Assembly (NCBI RefSeq): GCF_020217185.1
Contig: NZ_JAIWNX010000277.1
Location: 1-17,876 of the forward strand
Length of the DNA stretch: 17,876 nucleotides
Direction of reading: 5' to 3'
From: Asticcacaulis sp.
Lineage (GTDB): Bacteria; Pseudomonadota; Alphaproteobacteria; Caulobacterales; Caulobacteraceae
Below the pieces are notes generated by a model, which saw only the letters and a program-made list of their open reading frames with translations, had not been told where the DNA came from and searched no databases. Below are positions 3,241 through 5,605 of this stretch, piece by piece (within the stretch, counting starts at the first letter, position 1; each line of letters starts with the position of its first letter). Position numbers and translations under genes: made by a program.

Positions 3241-4068
3241 TTAATCCCACCAGAAAACCCACCAGCGCTGCGCCATTAGACACGCGGCCAAAATGGAAAT
3301 CTCACTCACGCCCTGATCGACAATATCAGGGCAGTAGCGATACATCTCCTTTGCCAAGGCAAGCGCCTTCTCACGGCTATCCAAAGGCTTGGGCACCCGC
3401 AAATTGAGCACATCGCCGCTCATGCCGATCAATTCAGCTCCGAAACGTTCATTCCATGACCGCAATGCAGCCACCTGAACGTCAGGCATTGGACAAGCGT
3501 TCCATCCACCCCATTTCATATAGGCCGGCACCTCCGAACCCGTCTTTGTCGGAACCAAAACGATATGGACCGTTTTAAAAGACCTACCTGTCAGAATATC
3601 AGTCGCAACACTCAGGCCGGCCTCATCAGGAAGCGATCCGGTTGGCCATTCTCCCATCATTGCTTCAATGTCTTGGTCTGCCAGAGCGTTATCTTGCGTT
3701 TTCAATACCTCCGGAAAGTGTATAGCGTTCGCGCTCTTTAAAATTTGAGAGGGGGTTTGTGCGCTTTCCGGCATTGCTTCCGTGTTGCCCCCACGATCAG
3801 CGACAAAGCGGCCAGCGATATTCATCAAGTCTTCGTCGCCACCTAACACAACCGGATAACCTCGCCCGGCCGCTTTGAGCTTTGTCCAGTTCTCAAGGGC
3901 CTTATCGCCTGGCACGCTGACGATCTCATAAGGGAATGCCGCCATCACTCTTGCTTTGTAAGCCGCAGCGTCCGTTGATCCGGGCTCAGACGCTGAGACC
4001 GGTTTGCAACCTATGAGACCCGCCGCTCCCAGTACGGTGAGCACCGAGCGCCTTGTTGTTCGATACAT
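3241..4068 (-). CDS. DUF4253-like predicted Tat/lipoprotein
   Basis: About 275 residues. The N-terminus T-T-R-R-S-V-L followed by L-I-G-C looks like a twin-arginine signal joined to a lipobox, which predicts an exported, lipidated protein. The C-terminal half resembles DUF4253: P-A-Y-x-K-W-G-G-W-N-x-C-P, then a W-x-E-R-F-G-A-E-L segment, then C-P-D-I-V-D-Q-G, ending in W-W-x-F-W-W-D. The N-terminal part has A-L-E-N-W-x-x-L-K-A-A-G-R-G-Y-P-V-V-L-G. Biochemical role unknown. I start at the second ATG (4068) because GGGGG (4076-4080) lies seven bases ahead; an earlier ATG at 4086 precedes that site. The last 120 bp are 63/120 G+C by hand count, lower than the flanking genes, hinting at later arrival. 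It is convergent with rnhB and divergent from ccrM. Confidence 0.7.
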   Translation of the reverse strand: MYRTTRRSVLTVLGAAGLIGCKPVSASEPGSTDAAAYKARVMAAFPYEIVSVPGDKALENWTKLKAAGRGYPVVLGGDEDLMNIAGRFVADRGGNTEAMPESAQTPSQILKSANAIHFPEVLKTQDNALADQDIEAMMGEWPTGSLPDEAGLSVATDILTGRSFKTVHIVLVPTKTGSEVPAYMKWGGWNACPMPDVQVAALRSWNERFGAELIGMSGDVLNLRVPKPLDSREKALALAKEMYRYCPDIVDQGVSEISILAACLMAQRWWVFWWD

Positions 4069-4106
4069 GCGATTTCCCCCTGTCATCCGAGTTCATAGAA
4101 CAAAAC

Positions 4107-4216
4107 GAATCCAAAACTGAGTCCTAAAAGACTCACCCCCAGAAAATTGAGTCAAATGAGACTCGCCCGATTCGCCGCGAGTCAAGTTGTAACTTTTTAT
4201 TAACCCCACAGGATTC
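4107..4216. promoter_or_regulatory. Dense GANTC array in front of ccrM
   Basis: Eight GANTC sites occur in 110 bp, starting at 4107, 4119, 4130, 4149, 4160, 4169, 4179 and 4212. About 0.4 would be expected by chance at equal base frequencies. The unit GAGTC-N6-GACTC is present twice (4119-4134 and 4149-4164), exactly 30 bp apart, inside an imperfect 30-bp tandem repeat (4113-4142 and 4143-4172; 20 of 30 positions match). A GATTC-N5-GAGTC pair follows at 4169-4183. CcrM methylates GANTC, so this region can plausibly act as a methylation-sensitive switch for ccrM, for the divergent lipoprotein, or for both. The sites and the repeat are seen directly; the regulatory role is inferred. Confidence 0.75.
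4189..4205 (+). promoter_or_regulatory. Candidate CtrA box upstream of ccrM
   Basis: GTAA at 4189-4192, seven bases, then TTAACC at 4200-4205. This fits the CtrA consensus TTAA-N7-TTAA with one mismatch in the first half-site. CtrA is known to activate ccrM late in the cell cycle in Caulobacter. The box lies about 70 bp before the ccrM start and between two of the GANTC sites, a sensible promoter position. No binding evidence is available. Confidence 0.55.
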
Positions 4217-4271
4217 TAACCTGTCTTTTCTTACCGGCCCACAGAAGCGGGCCGCCACGATCCGGGGTTAA

Positions 4272-5401
<1,130 letters not shown>

Positions 5402-5480: not shown

Positions 5481-5605
5481 ATTTTGCGACTAGAGCGATG
5501 TGCGGAAAAGTGTAAGCGGTTTCCGCAAAAACATCGCTACAAAACAGAAACTTAGAGCGAAATGACGCTTCCACCTAAAATCATTTCGCTCTAAAGTCGC
5601 AATAT
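5481..5605. repeat. MITE-like element with two hairpins and terminal inverted repeats
   Basis: The ends ATTTTGCGACT (5481-5491) and AGTCGCAATAT (5595-5605) are inverted copies with 10 of 11 matches. Inside, hairpin 1 pairs TGCGGAAA (5501-5508) with TTTCCGCA (5520-5527) and, outside that, AGCGATG (5494-5500) with CATCGCT (5532-5538). Hairpin 2 pairs TTAGAGCGAAATGA (5552-5565) perfectly with TCATTTCGCTCTAA (5581-5594). Both hairpins begin with an AGAGCGA-type sequence. No ORF or target duplication was seen. It fills most of the 307-bp gap between ccrM and the next gene. Repeats of this look are scattered in many alphaproteobacterial genomes, but no second copy was seen in this window. Confidence 0.65.

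Follow-up and report, generated by a model that had tools for sequence, protein, structure and literature searches.

A conserved palindromic pair of GANTC sites in a dense GANTC array upstream of ccrM in Asticcacaulis

According to an excerpt of PMC2217572, CtrA activates ccrM of Caulobacter crescentus only when the DNA is hemimethylated, and an excerpt of PMC3973325 counts ccrM itself as 'most probably' affected by methylation. The motif TTAA-N7-TTAA is attributed to CtrA in the part of PMC4287350 that was covered. Excerpts of three further papers describe GcrA as a dimer recruited by methylated GANTC (PMC3667746), give its extended motif as YGAKTCK (PMC7987155), and report that C. crescentus ftsZ is activated by methylation of a conserved CGACTC (PMC3708114). 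At C. crescentus promoters shielded by MucR, such as P169 with its four GANTCs, the reading of several sites depends on a protein that competes with CcrM (PMC5172544, in part). MucR has no consensus motif in the covered part of PMC7987155, whereas an exact palindrome is fixed at the locus described here. Restriction of CcrM synthesis to a short period is central to the alphaproteobacterial cell cycle, and the protein reading methylation at ccrM is not settled in the parts of the literature covered. The promoter type is known, and promoters rich in GANTC have precedents (up to six sites at ctrA, four at P169). The same parts of the literature hold no earlier description of the palindrome, of a dense array at ccrM or of an element shared with ftsZ.

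The ccrM locus of Asticcacaulis resembles the methylation-controlled, CtrA-activated promoter of C. crescentus in the gene itself, in a CtrA-box-like element and in a leader-proximal GANTC, and Caulobacter-like genomes often have the same palindrome. Compared with the Caulobacter-type promoter, Asticcacaulis adds the conserved sites S1, S4, S6 and S7 (Table 1) and has up to eight GANTCs instead of two to four. With the GcrA–CcrM target promoters (ctrA P1, mipZ, ftsZ and ftsN) it shares a GANTC in a cell-cycle promoter, and some Asticcacaulis ftsZ genes carry the element. In the excerpted literature those targets depend on one GANTC or a few close to the core of the promoter, whereas here a palindromic pair lies well upstream. 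In the Dam/SeqA system of enterobacteria, clustered GATC targets of an orphan adenine methyltransferase lie before cell-cycle functions, and the array is similar in being a cluster of such target sites ahead of a cell-cycle gene. However, no SeqA-like reader is known for GANTC, and no link to the origin was found here, since the sole candidate proved to be ftsZ. In synthetic CcrM memory circuits (PMC5458116), methylation-sensitive zinc-finger repressors reportedly control the CcrM gene. As proposed here for Asticcacaulis, these circuits place a CcrM gene under a methylation-sensitive operator; they are engineered, whereas the Asticcacaulis arrangement is natural and its reader is a proposal.

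The window (the whole stretch of DNA analysed, 17,876 nt) has eight GANTCs within 4107–4216, with starts at 4107, 4119, 4130, 4149, 4160, 4169, 4179 and 4212 (S1 to S8). The earlier note, made from the sequence alone, had reported eight sites in 110 bp in front of ccrM, at about 18 times the random rate, with GAGTC-N6-GACTC occurring twice, 30 bp apart. All eight sites and both copies were located, and the stated rate is correct against a uniform-base expectation of about 0.41 GANTC per 110 bp. The window overall contains 35 GANTCs where shuffled sequences would give 72, so the cluster occurs in a stretch that is generally depleted of the motif. A sample of the same genome (208,960 bases, without the contig of the window) has 1.565 GANTCs per kb, and the array exceeds this density about 48-fold. 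The note had proposed a check for equally dense clusters elsewhere. None appeared in samples of about 627 kb in all: the maximum for any other 110-bp stretch was three GANTCs in 226,836 bases of the same genome (20 of its 320 contigs, that of the window among them), and the relative G068 likewise had no more than three in 400,000 sampled bases. In the 3.44-Mb assembly GAGTC-N6-GACTC has two copies, both at this locus, compared with six matches of the reversed control pattern. A general enrichment of GANTC-N6-GANTC doublets was ruled out, because genome-wide they numbered 17 against 23 for the reversed control.

Table 1. Features of the ccrM upstream region and its neighbours in the window.
Feature	Position	Strand	Remarks
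Divergent DUF4253 protein, lipoprotein-like N-terminus	3241..4086	-	Pfam DUF4253; outside the conserved unit
AT-rich conserved left flank GAACAAAACGAATCCAAAAC with site S1 (4107)	4098..4117	none	
Core palindrome TGAGTC-N6-GACTCA	4118..4135	none	Proposed operator; CcrM sites S2 (4119) and S3 (4130), centres 11 bp apart
Site S4, GANTC, central base variable	4149..4153	none	18/25 genomes with alignment gaps closed
Second GAGTC-N6-GACTC (S4 + S5)	4149..4164	none	Arose with the 11-bp insertion
Site S6, GATTC, invariant	4169..4173	none	25/25 genomes, central T throughout
Site S7, GAGTC	4179..4183	none	19/25 genomes, central base variable
CtrA-box-like element GTAA-N7-TTAA	4189..4203	+	Sequence likeness to TTAA-N7-TTAA
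Leader-proximal site S8, GATTC	4212..4216	none	22/25 genomes, central base variable
ccrM, orphan GANTC adenine methyltransferase, 370 aa	4275..5387	+	Pfam N6_N4_Mtase and RAMA

The closest solved structure to the encoded methyltransferase is PDB 6pbd, Modification methylase CcrMI (E 8e-187). S8 lies 63 bp ahead of the start codon, and the CtrA-box-like element is placed between S1–S7 and S8. This element has one mismatch in the window, and a subclade of six genomes has the exact motif; the resemblance is one of sequence. A scan of 4060–4290 for the sigma-70 consensus found no promoter.

ccrM was found in all 25 genomes of the Asticcacaulis set, which includes the genome of the window, with matches split in two pieces in G114 and G149. 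In the approximately 275 bp before the gene, every one of them has between four and eight GANTCs (mean 6.9): eight in six genomes, seven in 13, six in four, five in one and four in one. The corresponding means are 1.6 at eight loci and 1.4 at 16 further loci (L035–L050) of other Caulobacteraceae, 2.75 at 60 mostly Rhodobacteraceae loci, and 3.3 at 18 loci of the Caulobacter-like group g22, which were partly picked for carrying the palindrome; the loci within these groups may share species. A low number of GANTCs before ccrM is common, and the dense array is a genus trait of Asticcacaulis. The comparison of upstream regions in relatives, which had been suggested as a check, thus found the array conserved in 25 of 25 genomes. 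The earlier statement that the Caulobacter ccrM promoter has far fewer sites is supported by the means of 1.4 to 1.6 in other Caulobacteraceae, although 11 of the 18 Caulobacter-like loci have four sites.

In an alignment of the 25 upstream regions the conserved block extends from about 4098 to 4221. S3 and S6 are intact in 25/25 genomes, S2 in 23/25, S8 in 22/25 and S7 in 19/25; S1 is intact at the aligned columns in 19/25 and shifted by one base in three more. Among intact sites the central base is constant at S1, S2, S3 and S6, whereas at S7 and S8 it differs between genomes with GA and TC retained. The 11-bp insertion that gives S5 and the second palindrome is present in just 4/25 genomes (G000, G042, G104 and G109), so the 30-bp tandem is recent and not ancestral. 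Both GAGTC-N6-GACTC copies are intact in 2/25 genomes. The weight placed earlier on the duplication of the palindrome, which is lineage-specific, is not supported.

The core palindrome stands out within the array. Its arms, TGAGTC and GACTCA (12 columns), have a mean pairwise identity of 0.974 across the 25 genomes, whereas the six columns of the spacer have 0.453. For comparison, the value is 0.71 for the array as a whole, 0.609 for fourfold-degenerate third positions of ccrM (150 codons) and 0.417 for the 57 bp upstream of the array. Arms that are fixed around a spacer that is free are the footprint of a protein operator. The palindrome has the signature of an operator, and we propose that a protein binds it. 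The cluster is genus-wide and has the structure of an operator, and the suggestion that it is an operator for a protein binding GANTC in some methylation state is still the preferred, though tentative, one. The array might also act as the graded methylation sensor or timer that the note suggested.

The array is tied to ccrM. Upstream of it lies rnhB, on the same strand, in 15/25 genomes by a motif test, and other sequence in the rest. The window itself has the divergent DUF4253 gene there, and this stretch is replaced in most relatives. The array keeps its place beside ccrM whatever lies upstream, so there is no support for the divergent lipoprotein as its target. The proposal that the array also serves this gene was rejected for that reason and because the stretch above the array is not conserved (0.42).

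The palindrome is also present before ftsZ in part of the genus. TGASTC-N6-GACTCA was found before ccrM in 22 of the 25 Asticcacaulis genomes, before ftsZ in six and once elsewhere (G145 C3:94401), whereas its reversed control had one match across all 25 genomes. The ftsZ copies are two overlapping ones each in G029 and G137 and one each in G145, G119, G114 and G014. The G029 and G137 site is flanked by FtsZ and FtsA (Pfam), and with these neighbours the idea that the extra palindrome there marks a replication origin was rejected. A GANTC doublet one helical turn wide precedes ftsZ in 7/24 genomes (G029, G137, G114, G145, G014, G124 and G119, with G124 lacking the outer T); none was found in the other 17 of the 24 genomes examined, the genome of the window included. 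G149, where the match was incomplete, was left out of this comparison. The ftsZ upstream region of the window's genome (L188) is a GANTC-rich division promoter with four GANTCs, two of them 7 bp apart (GATTCCTGATTC), and the conserved CGACTC. The narrower pattern GAGTC-N6-GACTC occurs in eight places away from ccrM in the genus, and two of these are at ftsZ.

Palindrome matches were present in at least 66 of 299 Caulobacteraceae genomes and in at least six of 22 genera, and outside Asticcacaulis they fell mainly in g22 among the matches listed. We call g22 Caulobacter-like because CcrM of one of its genomes (G096) is 356/358 identical to PDB 6pbd, which we take to be the Caulobacter enzyme. 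Several g22 species have the palindrome before ccrM, for example TTTTGAGTCTGATCAGACTCAAAA; it was found at 9/18 g22 ccrM loci, which is not a frequency, since the set was selected in part for carrying it. Either the palindrome may predate the Asticcacaulis array, or it may have been acquired separately. Two branches of the family thus have a strongly conserved 18-bp element ahead of ccrM, and some species have it ahead of ftsZ as well.

The position of ccrM on the chromosome differs between the two groups. With hemE as the presumed origin marker and each contig treated as a complete circle, ccrM lies in the ter half in all four Asticcacaulis genomes placed, at 91, 93, 77 and 72% of the ori–ter distance in G068, G094, G042 and G133 (G133 has a broken hemE that falls under its cut-off), whereas it lies at 20% in both Caulobacter-like genomes placed (G096 and G130). 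GC skew was checked in G068 alone, where it turns between the 1.0 and 1.2 Mb samples, in agreement with hemE at 1.04 Mb. Late replication would make hemimethylation of the promoter brief and place it near the end of S phase. Because its ccrM is in the ter half, unlike in the two Caulobacter-like genomes checked, Asticcacaulis would be a useful second model.

We tentatively favor the view, at slightly less than even confidence, that the array is an elaborated methylation-controlled ccrM promoter, in which a dimeric reader of GANTC methylation acts at the palindrome, with GcrA as the best candidate. The CtrA-box-like element and the leader GANTC would be the inherited core of the promoter. Upstream of this core, the palindrome offers two CcrM sites one helical turn apart, and a dimeric methylation-reading protein, possibly GcrA, would bind there with the aid of the flanking GANTCs and set the timing and strength of ccrM firing. 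Passage of the fork through the late-replicating ccrM would leave the array hemimethylated so that ccrM can fire, and CcrM would then re-methylate the array and end the period of firing. What is observed is the array with its conservation, the operator-like footprint and the link to ccrM and, in some clades, to ftsZ; which protein acts, how the sites are methylated, whether control is positive or negative and when it operates are inferred.

Some of the evidence is consistent with reading of methylation. The arms are conserved and the spacer is not, and across the 25 genomes the element is almost confined to ccrM and ftsZ. S7 and S8 vary in the central base and retain GA and TC, a pattern that would be expected of sites that matter through their methylation. 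GcrA is encoded in 24/25 Asticcacaulis genomes, that of the window included, and the lower-strand half of the window palindrome (TGAGTCT) fits YGAKTCK. Other evidence argues against a reader of the GcrA type. The upper half (TGAGTCC) misses this motif. G099 has the array but no GcrA match in the genome search, and the control of that search also matched Sulfolobus acidocaldarius. Known GcrA control acts near -10 and -35, whereas the palindrome is about 70–80 bp upstream of S8. In intact S2 and S3 sites the central base is fixed, as would sooner be expected of a factor that simply recognizes the sequence. The absence of the one-turn doublet at ftsZ in the window's genome and 16 others of 24 also counts against it. 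GcrA control of ccrM is inferred to have been lost in Brevundimonas and freshwater relatives (excerpt of PMC7987155), and no row of the top-50 hypomethylated C. crescentus sites in the covered part of PMC5172544 (Table 1) names ccrM; both points weigh against the GcrA-type view.

The invariant central bases of S2 and S3 lead to a rival explanation, a dedicated dimeric repressor or activator that reads TGAGTC-N6-GACTCA as sequence and either competes with CcrM or is altered by methylation, giving a feedback switch on ccrM. We regard this as a serious possibility, though not as the probable one. The spacers in Caulobacter-like genomes are purine–pyrimidine symmetric (for example TGATCA and CGATCG), which is typical of a dimeric operator, and GAGTC-N6-GACTC is confined to this place in the window's genome. 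Such a factor would, however, have few other targets and would serve almost ccrM alone, and the ftsZ copies read TGACTC-N6-GACTCA, in which the central base is not inverted. Moreover, no regulator gene was found beside other palindrome copies among ten proteins from five loci, where the neighbours were rho with an alcohol-dehydrogenase-like gene, flagellins, a glycosyl hydrolase, a CcrM-like methylase and a glycosyltransferase. It is also conceivable, but unlikely, that the array has no cognate reader and that the dense GANTCs work by way of CcrM, for which they would be a sink or a slowly filling methylation counter near its promoter, or through methylation-dependent DNA shape. In favor of such a role, a high site number is kept in 25/25 genomes, with six to eight sites in 23/25 despite gains and losses; selection is nevertheless uneven, and a pure count of sites does not predict arms at 0.974 within an array at 0.71.

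Two explanations without a regulatory protein carry still less weight. We consider it very improbable that the palindrome serves as a terminator of transcription or forms an RNA hairpin in the rnhB–ccrM interval, although terminator-like calls were made on the minus strand at 4135–4118 and 4164–4149 (three in the region against 0.2 in shuffles), the strand folding z is -3.25, and the palindrome follows the stop codon of rnhB or rho in some Caulobacter-like genomes. Against it, the arms are fixed in sequence and not in pairing, while fourfold sites are 61% identical; the stem would have three G–C pairs only; the sense strand in the window has no T-run, the T-rich tail being on the minus strand only; and the palindrome is kept in 10/25 genomes without rnhB directly upstream (motif test). 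A chance cluster without function might be imagined from excerpts of two papers, in which GANTCs are over-represented in alphaproteobacterial intergenic DNA (PMC3973325) and up to six of them lie within 300 bp of ctrA in Caulobacterales (PMC8116508). With a Poisson expectation of about 3e-6 comparable clusters per genome and conservation in 25/25 genomes, chance is already refuted for practical purposes.

The preferred reading of a methylation-controlled promoter with a dimeric reader can be extended, more doubtfully, to the family. A paired-GANTC operator one helical turn wide may be a distinct cis-element of Caulobacteraceae, at which a dimeric reader would sense the joint methylation of both halves and couple ccrM (in some lineages ftsZ as well) to the completion of replication. 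Growth of the array together with the ter-ward position of ccrM might then have produced a sensor of replication completion in Asticcacaulis.

Further paired sites were seen apart from ccrM and ftsZ. In the covered part of PMC5172544 (Table 1), the persistently unmethylated C. crescentus GANTCs 738020 and 738031, at CCNA_00681/CCNA_00682, have the spacing of the palindrome halves described here, exactly 11 bp. Another intergenic GAGTC-N6-GACTC is common to two sister species of Asticcacaulis (L173, G029:C1:280273; L176, G137:C29:9353), and the L173 copy lies between aminotransferase and glycosyltransferase genes. An identical GANTC triplet, GAATCACAATTCGATTCATCTGTGAATC, occurs at eight places in G104 and two in G052 and resembles part of a repeated or mobile element.

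In g22, TGAGTC-N6-GACTCA starts with the TGA stop codon of rho at 13 loci (L284, L285, L288, L290, L292, L296, L297, L301, L302, L307, L309, L311 and L314), where Pfam served to identify rho in L285 and the common 3' end of the gene at the other loci. This copy precedes a G+C-rich terminator-like hairpin, and its arms are constant while its spacer varies between species. Two palindromes 22 bp apart lie between two flagellin genes at L299:2563–2602, and one lies upstream of a flagellin gene at L293:2499–2516. On the 3' side of ccrM in the window (5490–5600), two successive inverted-repeat-like elements, AGCGATGT...ACATCGCT and AGAGCGAAATGA...TCATTTCGCTCT, were recognized by eye.
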